Shown piece after piece: positions 24,762 to 57,937 of a stretch of DNA of 64,000 nt. Every line of letters starts with the position of its first letter. The stretch's first letter is position 1. Where the stretch lies: assembly GCF_963678975.1 (NCBI RefSeq), contig NC_089281.1:3278926-3342925 (forward strand). Direction: 5' to 3'. The notes beneath the pieces are model-generated. The model was not told the origin of the DNA, ran no database searches, and was given only the letters and a program-made list of their open reading frames with translations. The stretch comes from Dysidea avara (lineage: Eukaryota; Porifera; Demospongiae; Dictyoceratida; Dysideidae). The position numbers and the translations under genes were made by a program.

Positions 24762-24870
24762 GATTTTATAGTAGGCATTCCAATATCCGTGATTTTTTAA
24801 TGAAAAAAATCTCCGTATATTCCCCAATAGAACCCTGGCACAAAATAACAACTCGTGTTTAACTTGGGAT
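24762..24870 (-). promoter_or_regulatory. upstream block of gene 1 shared with the ATPase gene
   Basis: On the minus strand this block (AAACACGAGTT, TTATTTTGTGCCAGGGTT, GGAATATACG, GGAATGCCTACTATA in order) ends about 70 bp before the gene 1 ATG. It matches 57828-57937, which ends about 45 bp before the internal ATG of the plus-strand ATPase. Similarity over about 105 bp is roughly 85% by eye. The two coding regions are unrelated. A promoter or 5' UTR role is inference. Confidence 0.6.
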
Positions 24871-24930
24871 TGCTCCGTCGTCCTAGCTCCAATGAGGATG
24901 AAATTCGCTGTGGGGTTTGTCCACACGCTG

Positions 24931-26068
24931 ATCATCATGAAAATCTTAGTTTTATCATGCGTGTTACATATAAGTAAGCTTTGTGTTGTTTTGTAATCTT
25001 TTCAAGCCTTATAATGTATGTAGAATACTTTACAACTTTAAAAAACGTACTGTCGGGTGGAAGGTAGTCACTGGTGCTTACTTTAAAGTACGTAGTTACT
25101 CTGGTTAGCGATTTTCAGCTCCAGAGCAATTTTCTGATGGCTGTGTCATCAGCTCAAAAGTATAAACCACTTCAAAGTCGGCATAACAATGCCATAATTG
25201 AAACCACAACGGTATTGTTGCATCATTGTGGCACCTCCACTACCTATATAAGTTGTTAACTTGATTACTTGACATAGCCTCTTGCCTATGGGTATACACC
25301 ATTGTATTGAGAAGTGTGTAGTAGGTGAAGCATATTTGCTCACCACAAAGCATACAAAGATCTCTGAGATCTGATACAATCTGCTCATTACATGTATAAA
25401 CTTGCAGCTAGAAGCAACTGCAGTTTCAAGATAGTCCAGATTGCTAGATGGCTTCCTGATTTAATTGTGCCATTTTTCCCTTTAAAATGTATGGGGAACC
25501 CCGAGAAAAAATGTACCTTTTTTCAGTTTTTAAGCACTGTGCATGCCAAAGTAGCTAATTCCAGCCCAACAAACTATATATTTCTGAGATCAGCAATCAA
25601 TACTCTATCTATTGAGCATATAAAAAGCCAATTTTTCCAAAATTTAAAAATTGGGCTGGAATGCCTATTAATTTTATAGTTATATGTGACCAGAGTTTAC
25701 AAAACAGATCCAAATCGCACATCAGGCAAAATCAAACTAACACCACCAGTGGATAGCTACACTATCGTACTACTAGTTTTGACCCTCAGTACTACTCAAA
25801 CTACTCGTGGCTGGTTTTAACAGACATCTTTTCTGGGTGGTGTGGAGTGCTCAAATGGCGGTTTCAGGCCTTGTGAAGGACCTGGCTTGGCAAGAATCAG
25901 TGGTTTACTGGTGGACAGCCTTATAATGTTGGCCAGACATTTTCTCTGTTGATTTTACTACATATCAGCCACTAAGGAGCCAGCACAGCATTGTAATCTC
26001 GTGTCTGGACTCCAATCGTGGTCTGCTTCCATTTTGAGGTCTATCTCTTGCCCTCCCCGTCACCCCCC
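24931..26068. other. no gene recognised
   Basis: Contains a dispersed-repeat fragment at 25684-25725 (GATCCAAATCGCACAT, shared with 32345-32410 and 35250-35330) and a small inverted repeat (ATTCCAGCCCAAC at 25558, inverse at 25646). Pyrimidine-rich tract at 26055-26090. Confidence 0.4.
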
Positions 26069-26918
26069 ACCCTCCCCCCCCGCGAAAAATTTTTTTGAGC
26101 ACACTTTGGACTTAGAAAATTTTCACGAAATATTATTTTCCGGATAATGTTGTGTACGTATCCTGGATACTGACATGTTCAAGACTAGTAGCAGTGCCAA
26201 CAACGTCGTGCTCTCCGCCTCGCTCTCCGCCAGGCTGGCAGCCGCTAGAAAAGAAGGGCGAAAAAATTGAGCCAGTTTAGAAGAACTCTTAGTTTCTCCT
26301 GCCGTTTTTTCAGAAGGACTGTTCTTACCTTGTTTCTCTCACTGGCTGCCTTGCTGGCTGCCTCATCATTATGAACTGATTTGTCAGTGGCGTCTTGCAT
26401 TATCTGGCAGCACAGAGCTATTCACAGGTATTGGTGAAACTGATTATGTGAGTGTGAAGCAGCTTGTGTTTTATTCTTGTGACACCACTATGTGATTCTT
26501 GTGACACCACTATGTGTGTGTGTGTGTGTGTGTGTGAGTGTGTCTCGTTTTTGTGCTATGTAATGTACCTATCAATGTCACGCCCCACCTACCCCAGGTC
26601 GGGCAGTAGGTGGGGATTTGTAGGGGATTTGTCACCCAAGCTCGTCCCCAGGGTAGGGGCATTTGCAACATGAATATCCGTACTTTTCCATACTGTTGTG
26701 ATTCCCGGGATAATTACAGGTAGTAGGGGATTCGTAACTCAAAGTTGTCCCCAGGGTTGGGGAATTTGCCTTCTCGCATTTGCAAATCCCCAACAGTCCC
26801 CACCTCTGCCCGACCTGGGGTAGGTGGGGCTTGACATTGATAGGTGCATAACTGTTTGTACCTCCTGCAAGGAAGAACAGCTTAAGCCGATTGCATTGAG
26901 TTTAAACAATAAATCAAA

Positions 26919-26949
<31 letters not shown>

Positions 26950-27120
26950 CACTATAGGTGTTACGAATTCTCTCATGGAAGAACGGCTCTGCCGAATGTG
27001 TTGAGTTTAAATTTTAAAAAATTCTGACATTTGTTAACTTATCTGCTTTACCAGTTATAACTGAACAAGGGATGGTCACTACCTATGTATGGTCCTGTAA
27101 AACCATCTGTGACTGTGATC
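26069..27120. repeat. left arm of a large inverted duplication
   Basis: Matches the reverse complement of 31424-32150 over most of its length, interrupted by a 286-bp MITE and (GT)n tracts (26511-26541, 26921-26949). It includes a minus-strand ATG exon-like piece (26398 downwards, QDATDKSVHNDEAASKAASE then a GTAAGA donor) and a plus-strand piece after an acceptor at 27050 (VITEQGMVTTYVW). Both pieces recur in the other arm in mirrored orientation. They could be remnants of exons of a divergent gene pair or of a transposon. Confidence 0.7.
26563..26848. mobile_element. TA-target MITE, empty site present in the same window
   Basis: TIRs of about 45 bp start ATGTACCTATCAATGTCA and run through GCCCCACCTACCCCAGG. 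The flanks are TA (26561-26562 and 26849-26850). The inverted duplicate at 31690-31720 lacks this segment, so it acts as an empty site. The interior has repeated GGGGATTTG phrases. TA target fits the Tc1/mariner superfamily or a similar TA-targeting group. Confidence 0.85.
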
Positions 27121-27384
27121 AAGATATTTGATCAACCTTGATTTCATCTCAGGAAAAGGGGACAAAGCTTAATTTACTGTTTTGCTAATACAAGCCACTT
27201 GATTGCCTCTTTTAAGTCAGTAGAAATTAACATCACAGTGTTGATCTCTTGGTTGATCGCTGTCGTGGATAGTTTTACAGGAGTATTATATATGTGTGAA
27301 CAAGCAGTTGTGCTTTTGATGGGTTTAATAAAGAGATGTTTTGGTCCTTGGACGCTATGATATTTGTTGTATTGGAGATAACTT

Positions 27385-27750
27385 TGATTCAACCAGTTCT
27401 ACGACTATGCTGCTGTAATCTATGGGCCTCATTATTAGGGTGACATTAACAGAGTTGAATCACTTAAACACAGAGCTTCAAAACTAGTTAGTGACTTTCA
27501 TCGTTATGAAAGATTACAACCACCCACCTTAGTATACAGAAAATTTAGAGAGCCACATATCAAAAATTGAATGGTAACATGCACCAATCCTTGCAGCTTA
27601 CCAGATCCACCATTTCCCATTGACATTCAATTGTACAAACATGCAGTGCATGAAAATTTGTGAAGAAATAATTATTTTCTAAAGAATAATAATTGAATAT
27701 TGGAATGCACTACCGAAACATGTTGTAATGGTTGACAATTTTAAGTGAGA
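27385..27750 (+). pseudogene. degenerate LINE ORF2 C-terminal fragment
   Basis: Readable pieces are YDYAAVIYGPHY, INRVESLKHRASKLV and, after frameshifts, YWNALPKHVV. These match the YAAVxWxP...RRAxR...WNxLPxxVV arrangement of CR1/Jockey-type LINEs. Both ends are eroded. Confidence 0.65.
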
Positions 27751-30209
27751 TTACTATAAAAATTAAAAAATGTGATTTGAATTGATCAGCCATCTGTCTT
27801 AACCTTATTAAGTATTAAAGGAAGACATACAAAAGCATGATAATCATGTGTTTGTTATTTTATTGTTGTAATATCAAGTGACTACAAGTTTAAGACTGAA
27901 TTGCATCACAATTCACAATATAAAGTAATATTTTTCCCTAATTTGCCACTCAGATGTTCCTTGTACTACAGAAATGTTGCTGTTTTTATGTACATCATAG
28001 GTATATTAGGTAATGATTCACTAGTTTATTATGTGGTGATGATTTTGTGTGATGATCTATGATTGAGTGTAATGTTCTTAATTTGTAGGTGAATTCACAT
28101 TGTTATTGTGAATGATTTACTTCTCGTCTAAATGAGGTGTGGAACAATGAGTCCGTATTATGGTGATCTTGTGAGATGACTGATCTATGTTTAATGATGA
28201 ACAATTTGACTGTGAGCATTCAAGGGTAACAGCAACAACAAAAGACATGATTGAAGTTTTGCATTTAGGTGTATATTACAATAGCACCAGTGTGTGTATT
28301 GTAAAGCACCTTTACACAACTAATTTTTGTTGATGGCTACATGTTATTGATATCACCCTCTTTAAGAAAATGGTATATTCTTTTTGCTGGAGTGTAGCCA
28401 ATCGTATTTTGCTGTACATAGAGTGTATGCTCACCTCAATATGCTAGCTGTATCCTCACACCTGAAGGCTGCATTAGTGTTAGTGTAGTAGATTTAGTGC
28501 AAGTTATTTGCTATTTTATCCAATGGTAAATTTGCAGAAGTACTTTTATTACTCCATGATTTATAAGGTAGTTGTGCTTGAAAACTTATTGTCCTTTACT
28601 GTCTAAATAATGCCTGCATGGCTGACAGCTGTAAAGAAATTACTCGTACAGTGCTTCCTGACCCCTAGGTACCAAGACATGTTCAGATAATCAAAGCCTA
28701 TTTTTATACAGGGTTACTCTAATGGAATGAACGCCTTAGACGAAATACTCTAATAGAACAGACACATCTACTGTAAGTAAGTGTGTTGATAGTCGAAGGT
28801 CAGATAATCAAGTATTCACTTCTATTAGGTGTGATATATTTAATCCATTGTTGTGACAGCTATAGTGGATACTTTGTGTGTGTACTAATTGTGTCACCAT
28901 TTCATCTCTTGTACAACTAATGATAGCCTAAAGAATTAAGGGGATAAAAAATGAAGTTGTGAAGTTTACTCCCATATACTACTGGTATCAGTTCTCAGGT
29001 GCTATAATATAAGAGCACATGTCATTCAAAATTTCTGCAATAAAAATCAATGCATCCTCGTCAATTTTATGGAGTACATCTGCTGTCCTTCTTTATGAAC
29101 TTGAAGTGCTATTGTTATTAACACTTTACAGTGACCAGCACTGAAGGTCTATTAGTGTGTTAGTGTCAGGTTATTTGGGTTGCATTTCAAGGGACTTAAT
29201 GTGGAGCCGTACTCATGCACCATTTGAGAATGTTTTTGGTGTCTTAAGTGATATATGGAGCCACACCCACATCCTCTATGGTATTATGTCCACTTATTGG
29301 GTTTGTGTTGTTGTACGCAACAAGTCTGCATGGCATCAAGAAAAGTGCTATGCCTGCTTATGGGAGCCTGTAGACTACCATGGAGCCACACCCACTTATT
29401 GATCATTGAATATGTGTGTTTTGATACCTGTAGCTACTTGTTCATTTTCTTTTGCATACAATTCTTCCTGTTGGTCGACAACCTTGACTTGCACCATGTA
29501 ACTCTTACTCCTGAATTTAAAAAGCATTGATGGATTATCTAACTGTAGAACCTCTCTTAAAGTACCCTCCACTATAAAGAAAAATTTCTGTGGTTCCTAT
29601 AGAATACAATTTAAAGGACAAACTCTCAGTAAGATTTCATCAGTTGGTCTCAAACTGTTCGTTACATACGTACGTAGTGGTTCGTTACATAGTGGTTCCA
29701 ATAGATAAGTTTATATGTACGTACATAATTATACCATACATACACTAGGTCATTCAACAGTTCAAGTATGCTTGACTCATACTGTATGGGAGCAGTTCTA
29801 ATTACCATTAATATTAGAAATGTTCCTGTACAATAACCTGTATAAGAGATAGCACTGAGAATTTACAAATTTGTCTACAATGAAACCTCTTAAAGATTGG
29901 TAATTTTTGTCCTTTATAAAAAAGATGTACCTTAACTGTATGGTTGAGTCATATACGTAGAACTATGTACTACATTAGCCAGCAAGTAGATTGTCAGTCA
30001 CTCAATTAAATGGTTAACAGTAATCACATCTGTGGATCACAATTCCTGCACAGTATGTAACATAGTTATTAGAAACTACAGTGAGTTTCTTTTCTGTTTT
30101 CATCAGCTCCCACATATGTACCCATTATTGCAGATTTAACAATTATTTTGTCTGAATAACAAAAAACTTGAATATGCAGCAAAAGTACAACATTTGTATA
30201 TAGGTACCT
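27751..30209. other. no gene recognised; AT-rich, with old repeats
   Basis: A copy of the dispersed motif (28747) is present. GGAGCCACACCCA recurs at 29255 and 29380, with a related copy near 29203. Sequences resembling Tc1/mariner-type MITE ends (GAACCTCTCTTAAAG near 29547, GAAACCTCTTAAAG near 29885) suggest an eroded element. The longest ORF here (81-91 aa) is repeat-derived. Confidence 0.4.
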
Positions 30210-30685
30210 AACTAGTCTCACATGCCAGACAGTTTGTGTGGGGGCGAGAAATAAACAGTCTGATCACTGTTGTACACTTTCCATGAATAAACTGACATGC
30301 AATTAGATTACATCACACTATTGTTTTGTGGCAAGGATGAATCGTGCCAGTCACGTCTGAGCAAGCTAAGGCGAAAATTGTACTGGTGATGTCATGATGT
30401 ATTTGAAACATTGCTGAAGGTCTTCCTCGACAATTCCACTACTTCACAAATCCAATGATTATAAGAGCTCTGTACAAGGGGAACAAATATCCTAAGCCTA
30501 TGGCATTGTTAAACTTCAGTCCTTTATTACAGTAAGAATTTGAATAATTGGTGTTTGTTTTATAGAGCCCGCAAGGCAATCTGATTGGCTCTGCCAACAT
30601 TCCACAGTGGTCACAGAATGTGTGCAACAGTGACTAGAAGCTTATTTGCCACCCCCACACAAACCGTCTGGCATGGAGACTAGTT
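30210..30685. mobile_element. TIR element beginning AACTAGTCTC
   Basis: The left end AACTAGTCTCACATGCCAGA and the right inverse share about 60 bp, including TTTGTGTGGGGG. The TAGTCTC...CCAGAC start resembles the MULE-like family, but no flanking duplication is visible. Confidence 0.65.
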
Positions 30686-30936
30686 GGAACAATGAGTCCT
30701 TATTCTCACAGTGATTGCATAAAGATGAGATGACTTCGATCCAATAAGCATTTCTTGGCATTCTGTAGAGTGTTAGGTTACCTCATTAGACGTTGAATTC
30801 CCTAGCCAGTTGCTTGCAATATCTGAGTTTCCACCTACAAATAAGAACATCATACCCAATACACACAACATCACACAAAATCATGACCACGTTACCACAT
30901 AATAAAGTGGTGATGAAAATTAAAATATCTATAATA

Positions 30937-31181
30937 CACCTATCAATGTATTTACAGGGAGAATTGACACAAAACTGTTGCCGCACTATAGGACATTAAT
31001 TTTGATAATCATTCATTAAGCACACAAGTATACTTTTTCTTGTAACTTGTCATATCTCTGTGTGGATAAGTGAGGATTTGACACAATAAGTTTGCCCTTC
31101 TATGGGTCATTTGACATTCGGCTGTTTGAAATCCCCATGTATGCCCAAGGGCAGGATAGTAGGGTAATACATTGATAGGTG
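30937..31181. mobile_element. MITE related to the one at 26563
   Basis: Ends CACCTATCAATGTATT and AATACATTGATAGGTG. It shares the CACCTATCAATGT start with 26563-26848 but not its interior. TSD unclear. Confidence 0.65.
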
Positions 31182-31423
31182 AATTAACGTATATAACAGT
31201 AGCATCTCTATAGGGCAAGGAACATCTCTAAGTAGTGAAATGTTATTTTCTATTGGGACTTAATGTCACTACAAATATCAGTCACTTAATTGTTACTACA
31301 ATAGAATAGCAAATGATTTTTCATATTTCTTTCTGAGAAAGTAGAATTTGGTAATACTAATAAGATGACAAAAACCACAACTGACGTTCAGCAACATAAT
31401 ATTATAGTTCCAATACTCAGTAG

Positions 31424-32150
31424 GACCATCTGCACAGTCGTAGATGGTTTTACAGAACCACACATAGGTAGTGACCATCCCTTGTTCAGTTATAACTGGT
31501 ACAACAGATAAAAACAAACAAGTTATCTAATGTCAGATTTAAAAAAAAAATTTAGACTCAACACATTCGACAGAGCCGTTCTTCCATGAGAGAATTCATG
31601 ACACCTATAGTGACACACACACACATTTGATTTATTGTTTAACCTCAATGCAATCGGCTTACTGTAAGTTGTTCTTCCTTGCAGGAGGTACAAACAGTTT
31701 AATACATAGCACAAAAACGAGACACACACACAGTGGTGTCAAGAATAAAACACAAGCTGCTTCACACTCACATAATCAATTTCACCAACCTGTGAATAGC
31801 TCTGTGCTGCCAGGTAATGCGAGACGCCACTGACAAATCAGTTCATAGTGATGAGGCAGCCAGCAAGGCAGCCAGCGAGGCAGCCAGTGAGAGAAACAAG
31901 GTAAGAACAGTCCTTCTGAAAAAACGGCAGGAGGAAAGAGTTCTTCTAAACTGGCTCAATTTTTCCGCCCTTCTTTCTAGCGGCTGCCAGCCTGGCGGAG
32001 AACACGACGTTGTTGGCCCTGCTAACTAGTCGGCTTCAACATGTCAGTATCCAGGATACGTACACAACATTATCCGGAAAAAAATATTTCGTGAAAATTG
32101 TCTAAGTCCAAAGTGTGCCCAAAAAAAAAATTCGCCCGCCCCCCACCCTC
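31424..32150. repeat. right arm of the inverted duplication
   Basis: Mirror of 26069-27120 without the MITE. The plus strand carries ATG at 31817 (RDATDKSVHSDEAASKAASE, with one extra EAAS repeat) followed by the same GTAAGA donor. The minus strand carries VITEQGMVTTYVWFCKTIY and then DCADGPTEYWNY after a GTACCAG acceptor. The DCADG-x-x-E string is reminiscent of an LDL-receptor class A repeat but is isolated. Confidence 0.7.
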
Positions 32151-32453
32151 CACCCCTTTGTGAGCACTCGTGATACTACTTCGCTCGTCCAACTGCTCAG
32201 ATTTTCTATCTTATTTGGCGGGAAACTCTACAAGCAGCTACAAGTACTGGAAGTGGCCTGAAAGGTGACAGATTGATGCATCTTTTGTGTAAATTTCATA
32301 CGCGTGCTTGCTATCTTTGGAGACTTATGCTGGCTTCAATTCTTTAAAACCGTTTATCTCGAAACTTCTAATGTGCGATTTGGATCGTTTTTCCAAAATC
32401 CAGTCACATATACTCAATGAATGCGAGGACTGCATACATGCATGCTTACAACT

Positions 32454-32782
32454 CAGTGGCGGATCCAGGGGGGTTTCATTGGTTTCCACGGAAACCCCCT
32501 TTGAAAAATGATTGCGTAACAATTAAATGTTTTAATTATCGCGGCGTGCGTCTCGATCGAGATACTGTAATTAGAGCAGTCACAGTAGCTACTAAAGTAG
32601 TGTGTAGGAAGTTTTTAATATATTTTATGTACTATTACTAGGCTGTGACCTTTTTTTTTTTTTTTTGGTCTCACCTTACCAAACCAGACGATGTAGTGCA
32701 AACGTTTGCGTATCTCATGTCAATATATATCTCCACCTTCTAAACTGGAAACCCCCTTTATAAATTCCTAGATCCGCCACTG
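32454..32782. mobile_element. hAT5-like MITE copy 1 (5-bp TSD CAACT)
   Basis: Ends CAGTGGCGGATCCAGG and its inverse, flanked by CAACT (32449-32453 and 32783-32787). The interior has AAACCCCCTTT on both sides, a poly(T) run and a variant of the dispersed 18-bp motif (32563). A 5-bp TSD with CAG-starting TIR fits hAT5-type elements; assignment is inference. Confidence 0.8.
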
Positions 32783-33089
32783 CAACTAGCTAATTATCTG
32801 CATGCATGCAGGTTATATATACGTACAAATAACAGAATGCCTTATCCGAAATTGCATAAAAATGGCCACTGTAGTGTGGGAACTCTCGTAAAATTTGTAA
32901 GGGCTACTATCAGGAGAAAAATTTGAACTGAAATATCTCAGCCAAGAAGGAAGATATCAAGCTCTAACCAGCTCTAGTAGGTATGGTTATAAATTAGCTG
33001 AAAGAAATGAAAAGTAAAATGCAAAGGGAATGTGGAAGAACTTTTAATAGATACATGTTCAACTCCATTCATGATCCTTATCCCAACTA

Positions 33090-33780
33090 CTATATTGTTC
33101 CCCATTGTGGCATCCATACCTTATCCAAAATATCTCTGCTCTTGAAAGAACACAGCGACGAGCCACCAAATATATCCTGAATGACTACATCTCTGACTAC
33201 AAAACACGCCTTATCAAACTCAACTTGTTACCATTAATGTATACCTATGATCTATGTGACATCCTGTTCTTTATTAAATCAATAAAAAATCTATCTGATC
33301 ATTTTTACATCCAAACCTTCATCAAATTCTGCCACCATTCTACCAGGTTTTCTTCCTGTAACAAACTTGAACATGTTTTCACATCATCTAACAAACAAAG
33401 AAATTTTTTCTTCTACAAACTACCTAGAACTTTCAACAGCCTACCTACAATTGACTTAACTAAACCATTTCTTACCATCAAAGCTCAGTTAATCCAAATT
33501 CTATGGCAGCATTTTACGAAGAACTTTAATCCTGATAACATACACAGTTTTCATTTTTCTTTTCCCTGTAGCATCTGTTCTAAACACCCCAAGCCACCGA
33601 ACTTTTATGCACACAATAGTTAGTTATTATAAGTTATTAAGTATATAACTTCAGGGTCTGGTACTTGTTACCAGATTCCTTTATTGCAACTTGCTCATAC
33701 AGCTATAGCTAACTACTGTTTGTATAATTTTGGATTTTTAACATTGCACTATAAAGCTTTTACTACTACTACTACTACTG
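33090..33780 (+). pseudogene. 5'-truncated LINE: ORF2 C-terminus and 3' UTR with (TAC)n tail
   Basis: An open frame to 33623 encodes LWHPYLIQNISALERTQRRA and continues to a Cys/His-containing end (CSICSKHPKPPNF). The 3' UTR ends in (TAC)n near 33763-33780, a microsatellite tail used by CR1-like elements. The frame is intact but the RT is missing. Confidence 0.75.
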
Positions 33781-33829
33781 TACTTACTTAAGTGGCAAAA
33801 AGAAAAAAAACTGTACCATTACATCAAGT

Positions 33830-34258
33830 CATCATGATCAGATCACTGTGGAATAAGCACACTGATGAAGAACAACACTTGCTACACTGATAACCAGACC
33901 AAAGCAGACATCTTAAATTCACAGTTTTCCTCTGTATTCACTAGAGAAGATAAGTCTACTCTACCTGACTTAGGAACAAGTCCTTACCCTGACATTTCCA
34001 CTATTAAAATTAATACTCCTGGCATTGTCAAACTTTTGAATGAGTTGGACCATTCAAAATCTTCAGGTCCTGATAAAATCCCACCATGTAAAATTATTGA
34101 AACTGTCAGCTGATGAAGTTTCACCTTGCCTTCAACTCCTGTTCTCTGCTTGTTTACAACAAGGTATTGTACCAGCAGATTGGAAGAAAGCTATTGTGTG
34201 TCCAATATTCAAGAAAGGTGATAGAAAGAACCCCTCTAATTACAGACCTGTTCTTTGA
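33830..34258 (+). pseudogene. LINE reverse transcriptase N-terminal fragment
   Basis: Encodes ILNSQFSSVFTRED, then LLNELDHSKSSGPDKIPP, then after a frameshift near 34112 IVPADWKKAIVCPIFKKGDR and NYRPV. These are the conserved blocks preceding RT motif A in CR1/Jockey LINEs. It breaks off at a stop at 34258. Confidence 0.75.
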
Positions 34259-34276
34259 CCTCTATTAGTAGCAAGA

Positions 34277-34900
34277 TCATGATTATGATTATGATGTGAT
34301 TTGGGTTGAGGCTTAGAAGTCTGTACACCCATTCAATTACATACATATACATACATAACAGGGGCGTACCGAGGGGGGTTTCCAGGGGTTTCAGGAAACC
34401 CCTTTGGGTTTTACACACTACTTGAAACATCAAGAAATTGAAACTTCAGATTTCCAGAATCTGAAATATATCATGGAACAGGACATAATAATAGTAGTTT
34501 ACACATGACAGAAACACCTATAGCATTGTTCTGAATTATGATTTTTAGTGAAAAGATCGAGATACTCTAATAGAGCAGTCAGGTAATACAAACTACTCTA
34601 ATATAAAAGTCACTTAGCTGTAGTGGAAACCCCTTTTCAAAATTCCAATTAGATGAAATAAACAAAAATTAACTATGAATATAATTATTACATTAACATA
34701 AATCTAAAGTATTATCTATAGCTGATTTAATAAAGTATCACTTGTAAGATTGTTCCAGTCATTAATCACTCTAGTACCAAAATAGTTGACCCGACATGAA
34801 TGGTGGGTAGGGAGCTTAAGTAATTTATATGCATGACCTCTAGTTTGTGTATTGTGGGAAAGAGTGAAACAGTAGGAGTGATCCATGGAACATGCATGTC
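34277..34900 (-). pseudogene. LINE C-terminal fragment with later insertion
   Basis: On the minus strand RGHAYKLLKLPTHHSCRVNY, then VINDWNNL and a stop, followed by a 3' region ending in (ATAATC)n near 34277. A segment from CAGGGGCGTACCGAGG (34363) to about 34648, with the dispersed motif inside (34564), interrupts the 3' UTR. The adjacent copy at 34895-35110 shows the uninterrupted 3' UTR. Confidence 0.65.
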
Positions 34901-35110
34901 ATGATTATGATTATGATGTGATTTGGGTTGAGGCTTAGAAGCCTGTACACCCATTCAATTACATACATATAAAGATGCAATAAACAAAAATTAACTATGA
35001 ATATTATTATTACATTAATATAAATCTAAAGTCATAAAAGTAATTATCATAGCTGATTTAAAATTATTCAATGAAGAATTTCCCACAATTTCACTCATAA
35101 GGTTGTTATT
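34895..35110 (-). repeat. second copy of the same LINE 3' end
   Basis: Direct repeat of the 3' portion of the preceding entry (GATTTGGGTTGAGGCTTAGA at 34920 and 34300), in the same orientation, ending in the same (ATAATC)n tail. Confidence 0.75.
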
Positions 35111-35199
35111 TATATATAGTAACATTATGTCTCACCTTGAAGCTAGCTTACGACAGTCTTCACCTGATTAGTTTAGTTTCTGTAAAGACCACTCAGCTG

Positions 35200-35330
35200 A
35201 GCTTAATTTCATATGTGTGCTTGCCGCTATCCTTGGCGAGTTATACTGACTTGAATTCTTTAAAACCGTTTATCTCGAAACTTCTATTGTGCAATTTGGA
35301 TTGTTTTTCCAAAATCCAGTCACAAATGTT
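35200..35330. repeat. dispersed repeat shared with 32290-32410
   Basis: AAAACCGTTTATCTCGAAAC and TTTTTCCAAAATCCAGTCAC occur in both copies in the same order. A shorter relative in opposite orientation is at 25684-25725. Confidence 0.75.
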
Positions 35331-35625
35331 GATTCTACACAATTCTTTACCCTGTCACCAATTCATTGCACAAGAGGTCATGATTATAAACTTTTTAAGC
35401 CTAGAGCTAGATTCTTTGCTAGATATAACTTTTTCTCTATCCGTGTAATTGATCAATGGAACACTCTACCCCTGAAGTGATTAATTCTCAATCAATTTCT
35501 GAATTCAAGAGGAAGCTTGACCTATTTGGTCAGAAACTGGACATGGACACAATTAAAGGCCAATGTATTTAATTTGTGTTGATTTTTTGTCCATTGAATA
35601 TAATAATAATAATAGTAATGGACAC
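35331..35625 (+). pseudogene. LINE ORF2 C-terminal fragment with (AAT)n tail
   Basis: Encodes CTRGHDYKLFKPRARFFARY, then RVIDQWNTLP, ending in an (AAT)n tract near 35600-35617. Homologous in layout to the fragments at 13405 and 34277. Confidence 0.7.
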
Positions 35626-35814
35626 TGTACTTTTATGGCTTCCACAAAGGAAATGTATGGTGAAAATTTTGATTGACCATAAATATTATGTCAGTCAGAC
35701 ATTTGAATGAAAAGATTTGAAATATTTTTAGCGGGTTAAGCAGTGCTACAAATGAGCAAAATTTCAAGATCATGTGGAATTGCATCCACGAAAATGTTTT
35801 TGAGTTTTGTTACA

Positions 35815-35941
35815 TTTCAGTAAGGCTTTCGACCATGTATCTCACCGCTACCTAATGGCAAAACTTGACCACTATGGTATTAGAAACTTTGAATGGACAT
35901 CGGCTTTCTTATCTTCTCACATCTGTAATAATGTTGCATAG
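35815..35941 (+). pseudogene. LINE RT motif A fragment
   Basis: KAFDHVSHRYLMAKLDHYGI corresponds to the RT motif A region of a LINE (usually D-x-x-KAFDxVxH). The fragment stops where the fold-back element begins. Confidence 0.65.
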
Positions 35942-46105: not shown

Positions 46106-46107
46106 TA

Positions 46108-46589: not shown

Positions 46590-46800
46590 TCATACAAGTA
46601 CAGTAACACTTTCACTGATCCCATGCACAACACTATAATGCAGTCCACGATGACCTGATATTGTAGTCATTAAGTCACCAGGAAGATCAGTGCCATCTGA
46701 ATCAACAGCTAAGTAGCAGTTGTAAACTGGATCTGCAATTTTGCCATCTATAATTAAAGTACTTGAGCTCTTTACAGCTATATTGACCATTATCCTGCAC
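46590..46800 (-). CDS. candidate exon of a host gene
   Basis: After CTGTGCAG on the minus strand a frame of 66 residues runs to a stop, with LIIDGKIADPVYNCYLAVDS and ending SESVTVLV. The ending resembles the last strand of an Ig-like beta sandwich. The alternative frame reads DNGQYSCKEL, also Ig-like, but stops soon. No neighbouring exon was identified. Weak. Confidence 0.2.
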
Positions 46801-46802
46801 AG

Positions 46803-47152
46803 TCAAGGAGTATAATGCACAAGAAAAGAATGTCATAATATGAAGCAATAGAGATACCAGATATCATTTTCAAGGATAATTGTTTGTAATGATCATGTGA
46901 TCAATAACTAACTTATTCACACTTAATTAATAATATTATTTTATATTGCATGCATACTCTTTTAGAGTCCTGCAACTTTGAGTGGCCAGTACAATTGTGT
47001 GTCAGTGCTTTTGGGAAGTGTTGTTGTGAACATGCATGTGAAATCTTTCCTATACATATAACCATGTGACACCCACGACCATGTGTAAAATGGTGAAATA
47101 TACAGTAACTTAAATAGTTGCATGGACATCAAATCAAGTGCATGGAGCTTTC
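46803..47152. other. no gene recognised
   Basis: AT-rich sequence without recognisable structure. Confidence 0.4.
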
Positions 47153-47157
47153 AGATT

Positions 47158-47460
47158 CAGGGGCGGATCCAGAGTTTCGAAAGAGGGGGGGCACCTTTCT
47201 GAAAAACAGTTGAAGACCAAAAAAAAAAAAAAAAAAAAAAGGTCACAACAATAATAGCTAGTTATCCTTACCAACTATATCACGTCTGTTATGTAAAATA
47301 AAATCCTATTTGTAGCTTCATAGGTAAGCTACACTGCCTCATGAACATTGTGACTGCTTTATTAGAGTAATTGACTGCTCTATTAGAGTATCTCGATCTT
47401 GAAGGGGGGGGAGGGGGGGGGGGCATTTGCCCCAAATGCCCCATCCTGGATCCGCCACTG
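47158..47460. mobile_element. hAT5-like MITE copy 3 (5-bp TSD AGATT)
   Basis: Ends CAGGGGCGGATCCAG and CTGGATCCGCCACTG, flanked by AGATT (47153-47157 and 47461-47465). The interior has a 22-base poly(A) run and two inverse copies of the ACTCTAATAGAGCAGTCA motif (47351-47390) followed by a G-rich tract. Confidence 0.85.
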
Positions 47461-47465
47461 AGATT

Positions 47466-49638
47466 TGGCAATTATTTAACTTGATTGGTAATCATCCTAA
47501 CCTACCATAGCACTGGCCAACATTGAGGGTAGTCTGGTCATAAAACTGATGTTTTCACACATTTATGGGTGAAACAGTGGATATTACTAAACTTAATGAA
47601 AATTTGCCAATGCTGGTATGAATCTTTACTACATGCAGGATTCAAGAAATAGAAAGTGTGAAAGTACATAGCACTGACTCATTATCACAATAGAAAATAC
47701 AATTCCTCCTTTTCATCCCAAAAATTTCTTGTACAACTCATTCAACTTGTCTTTATCAGTGACCTTTACTGACTCCACGCACGCACGTATGCACGCACGC
47801 ATGCACGCACACAGTCTGCTGACAACTGCTAAGTAACATCACTGAGTATACAGTATCTGCGGTAAATGTACCTGATTTTCTACATAAGTAAGTCCTAAAA
47901 TGTGACCGGGCCTGCAAAAACAAGGCATGTGGGCACAAACTACACCCCATCACACAACAGGTCATATCTCAGTACTGGAACAGAATATTTGTATCCTGTA
48001 ACTTGCAGCATAAAGCCAATTAAATGCTTACTAAGAGTGGAAATTTGCAGTACAATAGCATGATGGTATAAAAATATATCAGTGATGGCAGTTTGAAAAA
48101 GTAGGCAAACATTGTGTCCACATGCCCTATTATCGCAGGCCCAGTCACAAATATTAATCCTTGCTGGTTGTCACAATCAGGTGCTCCAAGTTCAGTTGCT
48201 CCAAGTAATTGAAAAGCACATCAAGTTAAATTAAAGGAATAACAGATTTTAAAATGGAGAATCTACATAACTGAACAAATGATTTCTTATTTTCAACTAA
48301 CCAAGTTGTGTTTATACATGCATGCTGCTTAGGCTCATTGCCAGAAAGACAGCTTTTTGCATTAGCTTTGGTTATTCTCTGCTAGGCTTGAGCTAATCAT
48401 CATTTGAAAATAGCCTATTATGCTTTTGAGCAGTGCTCAAAAATCCAGCGTATTGTGCTTATTTAAACATTGTTTTTGAACATCGAGAGGTGGTCAAGTT
48501 TGAATAGCCACCACATTGATTTTTGAAACTGAGGTAATAAATGCTGCAGTGTTTAACTAAGTAAATAAGGTATAAGATATGGCTGGTATAGAACAATAAA
48601 ACCATTGTGTGCAGTGATTCAATTAAACTATTACGTGTCACACTCTAAGTTTTCTAACTTATTGGCTTGTAAGAACCACTTAAGGTCACCATACTGCATT
48701 AGTTATAGTATCATTAATGGAGAGTTTGAAGTTTATGCACTAAGACTAGTCTAAGAATAGAACCCTTCAACTATAGCCTGCCTGTATATACCATTTTCGA
48801 TGAAACTGACATTTTAGTGCATGCCGGCATGTTCAAATAATTATTGTCTATAGCTATTGAAGCCTGCATATGAGGTGTGAAACATACAGCTAGTGGTTCC
48901 CGATCACTGTCCAAGTCTATATATCCAAGTGAATTAATGGTTTTCACCATTAGTAGAACAGCTGTCTAACCCATACTCAAGCCTAAATCAGAGTATAGAG
49001 ATTAAATCATGTTTTATTATGGAACTGAGAGAACTATAACCAACCATTCAGTTTTTGTGTCATGCATGGCCTCTGGAAAGTGGAGATGGTATATTGAGCA
49101 TTACAAGTTACACCAAAGTGATGGAGGTTCCCAGAAGTTACCTCTTCCAAAGATGCATCTTAGTGTTATCCTGCCACATACTGCTGGCAACTGCATGTGG
49201 ATGACTACATGATGTCATAGTGATGACTGTTCTATTTGACTGATTGCTCTATTAGAGTACGTTTGTTAGTATTTTTGAAATGAGGGGATCGAAAGGGACA
49301 CCAGTACCCACAACGCATTACACGAATTAAGAACCACGTGCAAATGCAAAACAATGCAATGTTCAGATTTATATGTTTAAGAATAGGTCATGCATTACTC
49401 AAATTCCGCTTCACCGCTTCAAGACAAGTATACAAGTAAACAAAAGACTCATATTTCGTGGAGGGCAGTGCGTTTTGATCAAGACGTTGAGCTAGTAGTG
49501 ACTGGGAGGCTGATAGTGGAGATTTCATTGGGGGGACCATCTGCAGCAGGGCGGACCATCTGCAGCAACTTTACATAGTCCGGCCGGACTACTTGAGGCG
49601 TGGTAGTTGGTCCGGCCGGACCACTTGCGGCGGGAGAC
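47466..49638. other. no gene recognised
   Basis: AT-rich. A CACG-type microsatellite lies at 47776-47811. One copy of the dispersed motif is at 49243. At 49540-49630 GGACCATCTGCAGCA repeats twice and GTCCGGCCGGAC twice, a GC-rich repeat of unknown origin. Confidence 0.4.
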
Positions 49639-49647
49639 CACCTGTAG

Positions 49648-50302
49648 TAGTCTCGTCCTCGCAGACCCATTCTCCGGGGTGGCGCTTATCGATTAGAGAT
49701 TATAAGCGCCCCCTCCGAAAGGGTCTGGTGAAATGCCCATACCTTTTTTGTCCGAGAAATCGCCAACTCTGGCGAGTGATAATTTTTTTTCTTTTTCCCG
49801 GGCTAGATGTAATGCCCTTTCCTACCACCCCCAGCACAAGAGGCAAACGTGCTGGACAAGAACTGAAAAGCGAGACATCTAAAAGTCCCTAGGGCCATTT
49901 GTTAGGCCCATTTCCGGGGAAGCATCTGGTGATCTAAACGAGATGGAGCGGCTTCCACAGATGCACATCGTCGCTGACCTAAACAGGGAGAAAGACAGGG
50001 TACAGCGAATCCACTCGCCAACTCTGGCGAGTGATAATTGGTGTTTAATAACTACACAAGAGGTGACGATTTGAGGTAAGCTTTGCTTTTGTAAAGCCTG
50101 TACTGCACAGCCATAAAATGATAAATACTGTTTAATCGTCGCCTTTTGTAAAATCTTGTGTAAGTAATTATCACTCGCCAGAGTTGGCGATTTCTCGGAC
50201 AAAAAGGGTATGAGCATTTCACCAGACCCTTTCGGAGGGGGCGCTTATAATCTCTAATCGATAAGCGCCACCCCGGAGATTGGGTCTGCGAGGACGGGAC
50301 TA
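49648..50302. mobile_element. MULE-like fold-back element 5 (9-bp TSD CACCTGTAG)
   Basis: Ends TAGTCTCGTCCTCGCAGACC and its near-inverse, flanked by CACCTGTAG (49639-49647 and 50303-50311). TIRs of about 135 bp include GCGCTTATCGATTAGAGATT, the same internal phrase as element 2. Retroelement fragment A3 is inserted at the inner edge of the left arm. Confidence 0.9.
49785..50014 (-). pseudogene. retroelement A3, 230-bp 3' fragment (25-bp TSD)
   Basis: It is bounded by a perfect 25-bp direct repeat (49760-49784 and 50015-50039; TCGCCAACTCTGGCGAGTGA plus five bases). On the minus strand it encodes RCTLSFSLFRSATMCICGSR, the extreme C-terminus of family A, then the 3' UTR (GGGGGTGGTAGGAAAGGGCA) and an A-rich tail. 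Extreme 5' truncation. Confidence 0.85.
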
Positions 50303-50458
50303 CACCTGTAGCGTGACAGGTCACCATATGCCCTATCAAGTTTAGGTTCCGTAGCTGACAGAACAACTGTTAGAAACGGTTTACCTCGAAAGTTTTCTAG
50401 GCGCCAACTTCTCCAGCAACTGTCTGTGACTTTGTGGAGGTACAATGCGAAAATAAAA

Positions 50459-52420
50459 GAGGGATATGAAGAGACGCAAACAATTATACAACATAGCTAA
50501 AAGAACCAAATCTAGTAATGACTGGAATGCCTATCGCTAGATTAAAAACTCTATAAATAGCAAGATTAAAGTAGCACACAATAATTATTTCAATAGAATG
50601 TTTGACAACTCATTTAATGGAAATCGTAGACAATTTTGGAAGTATATTAGAGCAAACGTAAGGACTACCATAATATCTCCACCCTAATTGTAGATGGTAA
50701 ATCTATCTCAGATACAAAGAGTAAAGCCAATGCATTAAACAACTATTTTGAGTCAGTCTTCGCTAAAGAAAACTTATCAAATATCCCTTCCATGAATGGT
50801 TGCAACAACCCTGTGAATGCTCTGCCTACTATGCCAAGTATTACATTTTCAATGGCTGGTATCCAACATCAATTATCCCTATTAGATACCAACAAAGCCA
50901 GTGGGCCAGACAACATTCATCCATATATCTTGAAGAATTGTGCAAACGATATATCTCCTATACTGCAAGTTATATTCACTCAATCACTAGACACAGGTAT
51001 ACTACCTTCCGATTGGCTCATGGCCAATGTATGTCCAGTTTTCAAGAAAGGAAACCATACTAGTACTGCAAACTACCGACCAATATCATTGACTTCTGTA
51101 TGCTCCAAAACTATGGAACATATTATATATCATTCCATAATGAATCATTTAAACTCTAACAACATTCTCATTGATACCCAGCACGGCTTCAGATCCCAGC
51201 ACTCTTGTGTTACCCAACTTATTCCACTGATAGAAGACTTGTCATATGCTCTAGACCAACAGAAACAAACCGATGTCATTCTCTTTGACTTTGCTAAAGC
51301 GTTTGATAGTGTCCCACATCAAAGACTATTAGTTAAATTAAGACACTATGGTATCAATGATCACATCTGTCAGTGGGTCAATACTTGTCTGACCAGAAGG
51401 TCACAGCAAGTAGCTTTGGATGGTATTTTTCTGACTCGATAGGTGTTCACTCAGGAGTCCCTCAAGAGACGGTCCTCGGCCCTTTGATGTTTCTTCTATA
51501 CATTAATGATATAACAGAACATGTAAATTCGCCACTACAGTTATTTGCTGATGACTGTTTACTTTACAGAATTATCACCACCAAGGAGGATGCCATTCAA
51601 CTTCAGCATGATCTTGATCAACTACACAAATGGGCAACTAAGTGGCAATTAAGATTCAATGTAACCAAATGTACTATTATGCAGTTTACCAGATCATTAT
51701 CACCAATCATTTTCAACTACAAGCTAAACAATCACAACTTGGGTACATCAATCCAACACTCCTACCTTGGTGTTATATTGGATAACAAACTATCATGGTC
51801 TCCACATATTAGTAATATAGCTGCTAAGGCCAATAGAACATTAAACTTCTTGAAACGCAATCTGAGTTGCTGCTCGTCTAACATCAAAGCAACAGCCTAC
51901 CTTACAATAGTACGACTGTAAATGGAATACGCTGCAGTCATCTGGGACCCATACCACCATAACAATATTCAACAGCTAGAGAAAGTACAGCGTAGGGCAG
52001 CTAGATGGGTCCTAAATGATTTCAATCGATTCAGCTCAGTCACAGCTATGTTACAGCATCTTTCTTGGCCAAGCCTTCAGCCGAGACGTAAAATATCCAG
52101 ATTACAAGCACTTTTTAAAATTTTACATCAAGATTATTCACTGTCAATTCCTCCTCATTTTATTTCAATGACAGACTATATCACCCACATTGTTTTATTC
52201 TACCAAACTCATCCACCTATTCATACCAACAGAGCTTTTTCTCCAGATCAATTAAGGATTGGAACAACTTACCATCTTCCATCATTGAGAGCAACAACAT
52301 TGACTCTTTTTCAGTGGAACTGCAAACATTGTATGGAACTCAATAATCTGTAATCTTTGTAACTACGTAGCTAAATTCATTTTATGATTGCTTTTTTCTT
52401 GAGCATATCAGCTGTGCTGT
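50459..52420 (+). pseudogene. LINE1: 5'-truncated CR1/Jockey-like element
   Basis: It encodes the pre-RT linker (FWKYIRAN), then LLDTNKASGPDNIHPYIL, SDWLMANVCPVFKKGN, NYRPISLTSVCSK, ILFDFAKAFDSVPHQRL (motif A), GVPQETVLGPLMFLLYIND (motif B), LQLFADDCLLY (motif C), HSYLGVILDNKLSW and, after a stop at 51919, MEYAAVIWDP and VQRRAARWVL. One frameshift falls near 51420 and an early stop near 50539. The endonuclease and ORF1 are absent. Its 3' end is probably the (AAT)n at 57332-57349, displaced by LINE2. Confidence 0.85.
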
Positions 52421-52496
52421 TATTATTATTATTTAATTTTGCTGTGAAAACTTCACAAACAGAAGAATATACACAGATATAATATAATAAATAATG

Positions 52497-55400
52497 CTAG
52501 CTATTGATTGCAAAATAATAGTTACGTAGCAGAGATTTGAATATGTCAGTGTTTTCCGCTTCAAAGATGTAGCGAGGTAGCATGTTCCATTGCCTTGATG
52601 TTGATGGTATAAAGGAATATTTGTAGGTGTCAGTGTTACAAAATGGTTCGATGAGTCTGAACATATGGCATGATCTGGTCTGTAGCTGGTACTGTGATGT
52701 CTGTAGATGAAACTCAGGTATGTATTCAGGTGGTAAATAGACATTTTGTTTAAGAATGTTGTATAGCATAGTTAAGGAGAGCTGTTCTCTTCGAGACTCT
52801 AGTGATTCCCACTTAAGTTCATTAACCATCTGTGTTACACTAGCATGATAGGAATATATACCTTTGACATATCGTGCAGCACGCCTCTGAACTTTTTCTA
52901 AAGCAATCTTGTCAGTTGTTAAATGAGGGTTCCAGACTGTAGTTGCATATTCAAGTTTAGGGCGTACTAGGCTAAGGTACACAGTAAATTCAAAAGGATC
53001 AATTCAACCTCCATGGGTAAATTTAAACTACAAACTTTTTTGTTAAAATGACCATCTAAAAGTGGTTATAACTAGGGTTAGGCTTTTGGACTAATTCAGT
53101 CAAAATAACTAGGGTAGGTCATTATAACTGTTCACTTAGGATGTTGAAATAACTTTTTTGGGTAATTTCAGTGTGTATAGTCAAGTCTACTATGGCACAG
53201 ATTAGATGACCAGCTACATGGTTAAATTTACAGTACACTGACCATTGTAACATTTGTGTTACATCCCACAATCAAAAGTGAACATGGAGAACATAGGTTT
53301 TATATACAATTTGAAAACTCTATAAGATCAGGTATGTTTAAAGTATTAAGATGCAGTATGTAACAATTATTGTGAATATGTGTCATTGATAGATTAATGT
53401 ATGTTATTACTAATGATGATTGACTTGTTAATTAATGTAAATAAACAAAATTATTTTGTGACGTGAGTTAATTTTACCACAGATGGTTAAAATAACCATG
53501 ATGGCAAGGTTATTTCAAACACTTGGCTAGAGGTTGAAGAGACTTTAGGGCATCTGGGTAATATGACTATATCTTACAAAGTTAAAATAACCAAGTACAT
53601 CCTTGGGTCATTACTACCAAAAAATCGGTCGTTTGAATTACAGGTAAAACAACCCAAAATTTTGGGTCATTTGTACCCATTTGAATTTACAGTGTAGGCT
53701 CTCTCTCTAAGGTGAATAGATGATGTCCTCGAGTTACGCTTTAGCAGACCAAGCATCTGATTTGCTTTGGAGGTGATAGATTGGATGTGTAGGTGCCACT
53801 TCAAATCACTCTGAATAATGATGCCTAAATATTTGTAATGTTCAACAGGCGAGAGGAGATGATAGTGTAGTCTGTAGGGAGTAATGATTTTATTTCTTCT
53901 AGGATGTAAAACAGTCATGGTAAAGCACTTTGATACATTTAGTCTCATCAGCCATCTCTGCTGCCATTCTTGTAACGCACATAAATCTTCTTGTAACCTC
54001 TCAGCATCTTCAGGGGTACGGATAGCCCCATATATTATACAGTCATCAGCGAAAAGTTTAATAGAACTATGTAAAATGGATTCCGGTAGATCATTGATAT
54101 AGATGGAGAAAAGAGTAGGGCCAAGGACTGTGCCTTGAGGGACACCAGACAATACTGGGCATCTGGGAGATGAAATACCATCTAGCACAACACACTGCGT
54201 TCGATGATTCAAAAATGAGGAGATCCAGTTTTTCAAATTTCCTCTAATGCCAAACCAGTCTAATTTGTACAGCAGATGTTGGTGTGGTACTGTGTCAAAA
54301 GCCTTTGCAAAGTCAGTGAAGATAATATCTGTCTGTATTCCAGTATCATAACAACAGGATAGATCATGTAACAGTGTGATAAGTAATGTTTCACAAGAAC
54401 GAGAATGACGAAAGCCATACTGATGATCACTTAGGATGTTGTTGGTTTCTAAATGTTTCATGATGTTTGAGTTTACAATTTGTTCAAATAGTTTAGAGAC
54501 AATGGAAGTGAGTGAAATTGGTTGATAATTGGAAGGTTGTTGTCGGTTACCCTGCTTAAAGATTGGTGTAATATTTGCAGATCGCCACTCAATAGGAATG
54601 ACTCCAGAGTCTAAGGAGCACTGAAGCAATGTTCTTAAGAAGGGGGATATAACATCAGCTGTTTCTTTAAGTACTCTTCCATGTATTTGATCGGGTCCAC
54701 AAGCTTTATTGGGGTTGATGTTAAGCAAGAGATTGTAAATGCCTTCTACAGATGTGTCACATCAGACATTGTTGGATGGGGGCTGGGACCCTTGTCTGGT
54801 AGTGAGGAGTTTGGTTCCTTAGTGAACACAGACTGGAACTGTTGGTTTAGTACTTTAGCCTTATCCAAACTAGTTTCATAACTAGTGCCATCGCATTTCA
54901 GTACAGGTATATTGGTATTTTCCTTCTTGATGTAAGACCAAAACCTTTTCTGGTTTGAGTGAGGATGCCCTTCTGGAGAAATAAGGTTATTTGTATAAGA
55001 CCAGTATGCAGATCTTAGTTCCTTCTGGACAAGATGTTTCAAAGATTTAAATTCAGCATAGTTGGCTTCTGAAAACGAATTTTTACATAGTTTATGCAGC
55101 CTGTCCCGTTTTCTCATCAGTCTTTTGATGTTTTGATTTATCCATGGCAATCCCCGTCGTGCTTTTGTATGTTTATGCGGGATATATTTGTCTACAACCT
55201 GGGCAATGGAGTGCTTAAATTTTGACCACAACTCTTCTACATTTGTTTCTTCAAAAGTGCCAATGTGGTCAGATGTGAGAAGGGTGTAAAGTTCCTCTTT
55301 GAGTGCATTCCAGTTTTTACCTGTTGTACATGTAGATGGATTGTGGGATTTGTCTGGTATGATCTACTTTAGCATTTACTTCAAAGCAAACAATATCATG

Positions 55401-56010
55401 GTCACTAATTCCAGCTATGCTTTGAATGTTGAGTATGGTGGAAGGTTTATTTGAAGATACTAAATCTAGTGTGTTGAAATCGCGTGTAGGAAAAGTGACA
55501 AGCTGTTGAAGTCCATGATCTTGCAGGATTTCTAATGAATATTCATGTATTGCTCTGAATGATGAGCTATGTTTTACGAGGTTTTCTGACCAGTCGATAC
55601 CTGGTAGGTTGAAATCACCAGTTAATAGGATAGTGGGGTTGTTCGTAGTTTCATTTAATTGGTGTAATGATAAGTCTAGTTGGGTGAGAGAGTATTCGTC
55701 ATTGATATGTGGTCTATAGTATGCTGCTATGTACAACGGGGAGCCAGAAATTATTAGTTTTGCTCATATGATCTCGCAGTCCGTGCTGAGAGAAGGTAGA
55801 TCAACAGATGAGAGCTTATTAGAAACTGCCAGGAGGACTCCTCCATACCCATCAGGCCTGTCTTTGCGGTAGATACTATAACCAAGTTCAGGTGGGATTA
55901 TTTCACTATTCATGACATCTGGGGTTAACCACATTTCTGTTCCAGCAAGGATGTCTGGTTTCTCTTTATCAGTCAAAGCTATCAGATCAGGTTTTTTATT
56001 CCGGATTGAT
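52497..56010 (-). pseudogene. LINE2 ORF2: AP endonuclease and reverse transcriptase
   Basis: From the 5' side: INFQSIRNKKPDLIALTDKE, AGTEMWL, IYRKDRPDGYGGV, a TGA near 55763, YIAAYYRP, TGDFNLPGIDW and ISDHDIV (AP endonuclease). The linker WINQNIKRLMRKRDRL follows a frameshift near 55310. After another frameshift near 54740: NINPNKACGPDQIHGRVLKE, FTDFAKAFDTVPHQHLL (motif A), GVPQGTVLGPTLFSIYIND (motif B), IKLFADDCIIYG (motif C), YKYLGIIIQSDLKW. The C-terminal block YLSLVRPKLEYATTVW to WNMLPRYIFEAE lies beyond a 715-bp MITE; excising it restores the frame. The gene is recent but broken. Confidence 0.85.
52980..53694. mobile_element. TA-target DNA transposon relic inside LINE2
   Basis: Ends CACAGTAAATTCAAA and TTTGAATTTACAGTG between TA dinucleotides (52978-52979, 53695-53696). 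Removing it and one TA rejoins LINE2 ORF2 as RERAY-LSLVRPK. Internal phrases (AAAATAACTAGGG, AAAATAACCA) repeat in a diverged way. Tc1/mariner-type target; no transposase. Confidence 0.9.
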
Positions 56011-56073
56011 TGAAAATTTATAAGTAGAATTTTAAATGATTAGAAGTCTTATTACATGTTGCAGGTACCATAG

Positions 56074-57306
56074 TCAATTAGAAGCTAGGTCAGGAGGTGG
56101 CGTTTTTGTAGCAGTTGCAGATAATGTGTTCATAAGTTGCAATTGTTGGTTCTGAATTGTTGCATGAAGTTTATTAAGTACGAATAAGCTTTGATTTCGG
56201 ATCTTTATGAATTGCCTGGCTACTCCCTTTTCTATCAAACATCTTCTTTCTTTTAGCAAAAGAGATTCTGCAACTCTTTCTTCAGCAGTAAGATCAGGCT
56301 TCACAAAAACTGGTTTGGTAAGCTTGCTCTTTCCGTTCAGGATGCTGGAGGCATCCGCGTATCTTAAGAACTTGACTAGGACAGGTCTGGGTCTGTTTGC
56401 CTCAGGATTATATTTCCCCAAACGATAACAGTCTTTGATTGAGCTTTCATCAATTGGAGGACTTTCTAGTTTTGAAAAAGCTGATGTAACATTTTTAACA
56501 TCCATTTGCAGCCTGTCTTGTGTAGTAGTATTGGAAGGGTTTCTTCTAGGCCATACACAACTACATTTAATTTTCTTTCAGGTGGGGCTGCTTGCTGGCT
56601 TTTTGGTTCACTGGGCTTTGTAGGAACAGGTGGAGTAGTTTCATTGATTGGGGCTGGTAAAGGCTCTTGAGCTCCTTCTAATTTTGCTAGTTTATTAGAT
56701 AGTGTTTTTACGGTTTCCTTCAGATCACATATTTCCTTGTATTGCTTAGTGCATGTACAAAGACTGACTGTGTTGAAGAATTTAAGCAAAAATCACCCCC
56801 TTCTATGTATATAGTTAAGTAACTTATCGGAATTGTATGTATTTTATAGTTTTAATATTATCGTAATTGTACATATGTATATAATTAAGTAACTTGTCGT
56901 AATTGTACATACTTATAAGTAACTAATTGAAATTGTACACATGTAATTGCACATCAGCATTATACCCCTGGAGGGTCCTGCTGATTAACAATAAATAATA
57001 ATAATAATAACAAAATGAACACAAATAAGGGGTGGACTCGCTCAAATTGTTAAAAGCAGGGCGTGAAAAGCCAGCACACATACGATGGATCCACCCTTGG
57101 CAGTCCCCTTCACAGAAAACTGCGTCTTGGCCCTCAGTGGATTCACTAGCCTCTAGTATAGTGCAGTCACAAACTATACATACCTCGCATTTGTCGTCTT
57201 CTTCGAGCGTACCCTTCGTCTTCTTTCCAGCAACGCCGGACGGAGGAGTGTTGTGTACTGGTTGCTTCCGCTTCGTAGTCCTTCTCGTGTGTTTAGGGGT
57301 GCTCAT
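56074..57306 (-). pseudogene. LINE2 ORF1: PHD-finger protein plus C-terminal RNA-binding-like domain
   Basis: It starts MSTPKHTRRTTKRKQPVHNT. A PHD-like zinc finger follows: CEVC...CD...CEGDCQGWIHRMCAGF...CSFC. The reading then meets a 216-bp insertion, resumes with a coiled stretch (KEICDLKETVKTLSNKLAKL), LNVVVYGLEE, and after a frameshift near 56510 DCYRLGKYNPEANRPRPVLV, KPVFVKPDLTAEER and ends DLASN. This is the usual ORF1 layout of CR1/L2-type LINEs with a PHD module. Not functional. Confidence 0.75.
56797..57012 (+). repeat. LINE 3' UTR fragment with (AAT)n tail inserted in LINE2 ORF1
   Basis: Phrases AAGTAACTTATCGGAATTGT and AAGTAACTTGTCGTAATTGT repeat, then CCCTGGAGGGTCCTGCTGAT and an (AAT)n tail. 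CAAAAAT and CAAAATG at the edges look like an imperfect TSD. It splits the PHD part from the rest of ORF1. Confidence 0.65.
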
Positions 57307-57827
57307 TTCGTCTTGGGCATTGCACAGTAACAATAATAATAATAATAATGATACTCCGCCAGTATTCGCTACTGCTGAGGACGAATTTCCTGACTTTGAC
57401 ATTGGTTAAGTTAAGTACGTAGCTAGTAATAAGTATATAGTTAGGTAATAAGTAGTAGTATGGTGTAGTTTTCAGTATGTACGTGTGTTTCTACTTGTAA
57501 TCTTCTTGTAAATGATGGTGTTTTAGCATTCAGTAGTTTTATCCTGTTCTTTGTGTGGAGAACGAAATTTTAAAAATTTTTTTGCATCTCACGAAATATT
57601 AAAAATCGATATTTCTGTGAAGACAACAACCGTGCCTCCGGTTTCATGGTGGATCTAGTAATGGGATACTACAATGAACATGCCATAATGATGGGGGATC
57701 GATTTGTAAAAGTTGATTTTTCGGATTGCGGACCCTACCTACGTGGAAAAAAAACCCTACGTGGAGCTAGATCCATCCGTGGCAGCCCGTGTAGTGATTG
57801 GAGCACTTGACCTTACAGCATCTGAAG

Positions 57828-57937
57828 GTCAGGTGAAACACGAGTTCTTATTTTGTGCCAGGGTTGTGTTGCGGAATATACGAGAATTTTTATTTAAAAA
57901 ATCTCGGATACTGGAATGCCTACTATATAGCTACATA
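57828..57937 (+). promoter_or_regulatory. upstream block shared with gene 1
   Basis: Matches the minus-strand block at 24762-24870 (AAACACGAGTT, TATTTTGTGCCAGGGTT, GGAATATACG, GGAATGCCTACTATA). It lies inside the N-terminal extension of the longest ATPase ORF, which argues that the extension is 5' UTR or promoter. Confidence 0.6.

Follow-up and report, generated by a model that had tools for sequence, protein, structure and literature searches.

A sequence block repeated before two genes of Dysidea avara is the 3' end of a high-copy, non-autonomous DNA transposon

Results

Two similar blocks lie before two start codons

The window, by which we mean the whole stretch of 64,000 nucleotides analysed here, corresponds to C10:3278926-3342925 of a 551-Mb genome in 108 contigs. 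It holds a predicted reading frame (ORF A) and an ATPase-like gene (gene B), each preceded by a copy of the repeated sequence that is the subject of this report. The features discussed below are as follows.

24091-24693, minus strand: predicted ORF downstream of copy A, 200 aa, no Pfam match
24765-24771, minus strand: likely 3'-side target duplication of copy A, CTATAAA, with the same 7-mer at 25673-25679
24772-24783, minus strand: 3' terminal inverted repeat of copy A, TTGGAATGCCTA, one mismatch to the family
24772-25667, minus strand: copy A, a near-complete element of 896 bp out of about 938, delimited by end-to-end alignment with the majority sequence of 47 full-length copies
25656-25667, minus strand: 5' terminal inverted repeat of copy A, TAGGCATTCCAG, exact match
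57620 to about 57740-57756, unstranded: a different high-copy repeat upstream of copy B, judged from the best 40 of 1414 candidates
57830-57922, plus strand: copy B, a 93-bp 3'-terminal stump, 91% identical to the majority sequence
57923-57929, plus strand: CTATATA, which by its sequence resembles the 7-bp target site of the family; the 5' counterpart end is lost
57980-59242, plus strand: host gene B, ATPase-like, 421 aa from its Met, Pfam AAA_22 at 6.8e-06, just under the cut-off

The original prediction had described similar blocks of about 105 bp before the two start codons, and these are real. In a blastn comparison within the window, 24866-24767 (minus) and 57830-57927 (plus) are identical at 87 of 100 positions with 2 gaps (E 1.6e-28), and the best match remaining to either block after this pair has an E value of about 0.02. 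Both copies stand in sense orientation to the frame that follows. The prediction placed the ends of the blocks 45-70 bp before the ATG, which is about right when counted from the block limits it used; counted from the ends of the element defined below, the distance is 78 bp for copy A (ATG at 24693) and 57 bp for copy B (element end at 57922, ATG at 57980). Other repetitive features of the window include foldback stretches at 14343-15886, 6550-7161 and 21042-21365 that match their own reverse complement at 89-95% identity. No Rfam family matches in the window at gathering scores, and a structured RNA was accordingly set aside as a candidate.

The block is the 3' end of a repeat of about 938 bp

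Across the 551-Mb genome we counted 365 exact occurrences of a 27-mer taken from the 3' end of the repeat, 182 on the forward strand and 183 on the reverse; its reversed control had none. The family must be larger than this, since only exact 27-mer matches are counted and copy A, for example, is not among them. Searching the genome with copy B produced 843 first-look candidates, and the best 40 of them were scored; all 40 matched, they are spread over 13 contigs, and the 39 that are not copy B itself fall within query positions 10-118 of 126. When 27 genome matches were aligned together with copy A, similarity continued for about 950 bp in most copies. We collected 47 distinct full-length sequences, copy A included, which range from 896 to 970 bp, with 31 of them between 935 and 940 bp. 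Substitution from their majority sequence has a median of 3.2% (range 1.9-9.1%), and the longest ORF of that sequence is 112 aa, leaving the element with no transposase of its own. The best conserved stretches across the 47 are the last 38 bp (98.6%) and positions 101-150 (98.5%).

The ends of the family can be written TAGGCATTCCAG...CTGGAATGCCTA around a length of about 938 bp; complete copies start TAGGCATTCC and finish GGAATGCCTA, with small variation. TAGGCATTCCAG forms a terminal inverted repeat at both ends, perfect over 12 bp and extending imperfectly to about 26-30 bp. Copy A retains both terminal inverted repeats and is 3.9% substituted relative to the majority sequence, and the block originally noted there is its final 100 bp or so. 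A third match to the terminal repeat in the window, at 50522-50533, adjoins a LINE-like reading frame and was taken by eye as chance. The downstream limit of the similarity between A and B is thus the true end of the transposon, and upstream the similarity stops at 57830 only through the truncation of copy B, copy A extending some 800 bp further. Three more copies (L011, L027 and L057) share with copy B the loss of the 5' part, in a search whose 3'-end queries can detect 5'-shortened copies and not the opposite case.

Two head-to-tail dimers of the 938-bp element were also seen, L041/L042 and L044/L045, the units of the latter being separated by a single base and not by a 7-bp duplication. The window further carries a tandem array of about 2.5 kb with a 31-/62-bp period (18309-20843), and by eye similar units appear beside some transposon copies elsewhere.

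Insertions are flanked by 7-bp target duplications

Perfect 7-bp target duplications flank 37 of 45 full-length sites, and 4 more have one mismatch; shuffled flank pairs gave a mean of 1.4 perfect duplications and a maximum of 6. The 4 sites with no matching duplication are both units of the tandem dimer L045, plus L030 and L052. This count excludes L041 and L042, which have no recognisable end, and copies whose alignment does not span the whole element, and L009, a separate copy, was merged by the de-duplication key and stands outside it; another key gives 38 perfect sites. The target consensus is approximately CTATWAG, with most information inside the 7 bp, and in raw frequencies over the 38 sites the complementarity of flanking positions is slightly raised; at two pairs, for example, it is 0.47-0.50 where 0.27 would be expected. 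Inverted ends, fixed 7-bp duplications, nearly uniform length and the lack of a long ORF together mark the family as a cut-and-paste DNA transposon that lacks an enzyme of its own. A SINE or LINE 3' end was ruled out by the inverted ends and fixed 7-bp duplications of complete copies; some 5'-shortened copies do exist.

At copy A the 3' flank CTATAAA recurs 5 bp outside the 5' end, a coincidence with a chance of about 0.003 within 19 offsets, which makes this the likely target duplication. A 5-bp spacer, ATTAA (25668-25672), separates the putative duplication from the 5' end of the element.

Copy B is a stump between another repeat and an ATPase-like gene

Copy B agrees with the family majority at 86 of 95 aligned positions, with 2 gaps, and carries two single-base deletions. 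Protein matches had hinted that the element might extend upstream of 57830; alignment of that region to the family is no better than alignment of shuffles, 297 of 500 of which reach the anchored score and 78 of 500 the local score, and the extension was rejected. Upstream lies the different repeat, which covers the window from at least 57620. Among the best 40 of its 1414 candidates, the 39 matches other than the one in the window all start at query position 1 and stop at positions 118-137 of 210 (57737-57756), so that the ends of the scored copies differ by no more than about 20 bp.

Gene B has a paralogue on the same contig (C10:5746233) that is 51% identical; the alignment starts at residue 104 of the 511-residue query, in which the Met is residue 91. 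As the alignment begins only past that Met, the stump lies outside the protein part common to gene B and its paralogue. The 4.2 kb examined near the paralogue contains no copy of the transposon.

ORFs beyond the 3' ends show no sense excess

To relate the copies to genes we used 56 loci, 28 of them best matches to copy B (B included) and 28 taken from the first places listed on contig C1 after two duplicates had been dropped; at L041 and L045 the flank is itself a second unit of the transposon. Within 1 kb past the 3' end, 81 ORFs of at least 60 aa point away from the element and 94 towards it, counts that come from a small, non-random sample with ORFs as a proxy and no random-region control. 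At a threshold of at least 75 aa, and leaving out the locus of B itself, the same flanks contain 38 sense and 39 antisense ORFs. A Pfam scan of these 77 ORFs, which reports families and not which frame matched which, found 11 families. These were reverse transcriptase (2 frames), a Pao peptidase, three phage-integrase-type models, and host-like families that account for at most 7 frame-matches: Med31 (2, weak) and one each for fn3, a DSCAM fn3 model, ARID, a purple acid phosphatase N-terminal domain and a PKD-like domain. In this modest sample, the predicted frames past the transposon 3' ends do not look like a set of genes under a common promoter.

Candidate source of the transposase

A 7-bp duplication fits the P superfamily, whose target duplications are of 7 or 8 bp; for its member Galileo, 7-bp duplications GTAGTAC and GTATTAC are given (PMC2775673, PMC4168063). 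This length is not exclusive to the superfamily, because a Repbase paper uses hAT families annotated with '7-bp TSD' in an example extraction command (PMC4455052).

P-type transposase domains abound in the genome, where PF21787 has at least 151 matches. In five families with loci among L059-L064 and L075-L084, the copies compared pairwise are 96.7-99.9% identical over about 4.6-5.5 kb, and such near-identity suggests that these P-type families were active recently. By eye, two of these families have 7-bp duplications in 3 of 4 copies (AGTGAGT, GTAATAT, ATATTTC); the fourth copy, L077, adjoins another end that makes its duplication unreadable, and three further families could be read at one end only. 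The termini seen in these resident elements are CATAGAT-like, unlike TAGGCATTCC. Exact TAGGCATTCC is absent from the 16 P-type loci read, though for six of them the sequence extends just 1.5 kb to either side of the domain and may stop short of the ends; 10-mers with one mismatch to the MITE end occur once each in L063, L077, L079, L080 and L083. A pattern search for other elements that keep the last 20 bp but have a base other than A at four positions of the A-run before them found 0 matches. Neither the 16 loci nor the 20-bp 3'-end pattern thus yielded an autonomous element with the ends of this family, and a literature search with the terminal 10-mer returned no transposon paper by title among the matches listed. 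From these sequence features, membership of the MITE-like family in the P superfamily is plausible but unproven.

Discussion

The repeated block before ORF A and gene B is the 3' end of a non-autonomous DNA transposon of about 938 bp belonging to a MITE-like family, and the pair represents two insertions, or remnants of insertions, of one high-copy family. We regard it as nearly certain that this is a fairly young cut-and-paste family; the positions of A and B most likely reflect its high copy number rather than shared regulation. Points that count against this reading are the 4 of 45 sites with no matching duplication, the 5-bp offset of the duplication at copy A, the copies that have lost their 5' part, and the failure to find an autonomous element with these ends among the loci and patterns searched. 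In the model that we propose, copies would have been moved by a transposase encoded elsewhere, possibly one of the P superfamily. One copy would have landed by chance before ORF A, and another before gene B, where it would later have been reduced to its 3' end.

The original prediction had offered, as one reading, a promoter-bearing transposon co-opted twice. Its transposon part is borne out by family structure and copy number, and its promoter and co-option parts have found no support. That a transposon end with promoter or leader activity was taken up by both genes is suggested by the sense placement of both copies, 57-78 bp before the ATG, and by the strong conservation of the last 38 bp and of positions 101-150, though transposition itself predicts conserved ends. 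Set against this are the hundreds of copies in the genome, the lack of a sense excess among the ORFs past the 3' ends of 56 copies, the paralogue of gene B that does without a copy in the region examined, and the state of copy B as a stump with two deletions; on balance such a double co-option seems very improbable. Co-option of copy A or of copy B is possible in principle, and nothing seen here supports it; retention of the stump in the 5' untranslated region or core promoter of the ATPase gene, a single-locus exaptation, would be a long shot. It had also been foreseen that hundreds of matches unrelated to gene starts would speak against a regulatory role. The number is there, with the 365 exact 27-mers, and the relation to genes, weakly tested, gave no sense excess. 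Because the block occurs hundreds of times in the genome, what the two loci have in common is ordinary debris of a transposon and gives no hint of a shared gene switch, and the idea of a shared leader is likewise without support.

Could the block instead be a coding exon, or an N-terminal extension common to both proteins? Copy B does lie inside an open frame, 57710-59242, and a protein search yielded many weak matches that fall within residues 17-131 of the query, for the most part 25-75, and several of these coincide with known transposon copies. The majority sequence of the family is, however, also open in the frame of B, so the open frame across copy B is not a sign of selection. With the two single-base deletions in B, alignment to the family at shuffle level upstream of 57830, and a paralogue that aligns from residue 104 only, we consider a common exon scarcely credible. 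The presence of two copies within one window might also recall a segmental duplication that carried one promoter region to the other gene. Yet the 2-kb upstream regions share nothing else at E 0.01, the 40 scored places (the best of 843) lie on 13 contigs, and most full-length insertions have target duplications of their own. These duplications contradict the duplicated promoter that had been suggested, and we put the chance of such an event close to nil.

Insertion of a mobile family at both loci, then, makes this repeat pair routine transposon content. With its exact ends and target site in hand, the family can be masked ahead of promoter or gene prediction here, and the many resident P-type elements can be searched for those ends.

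Comparison with known systems

Like MITEs and other non-autonomous cut-and-paste DNA transposons, the family is short and non-coding, with inverted terminal repeats and a target duplication of fixed length, and it resembles MITEs further in numbering hundreds of similar copies that vary little in length. It differs from a typical MITE in that its terminal repeats are perfect over 12 bp only, with the imperfect extension described above, and 938 bp is long for a MITE. With the P superfamily, as represented by the sites given for Galileo in the passages cited earlier, it has in common duplications of 7 bp whose consensus is A+T-rich and partly palindromic, although its own consensus of CTATWAG differs from those Galileo sites. 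From the resident P-type families it is set apart by its termini, TAGGCATTCC here as opposed to CATAGAT there.
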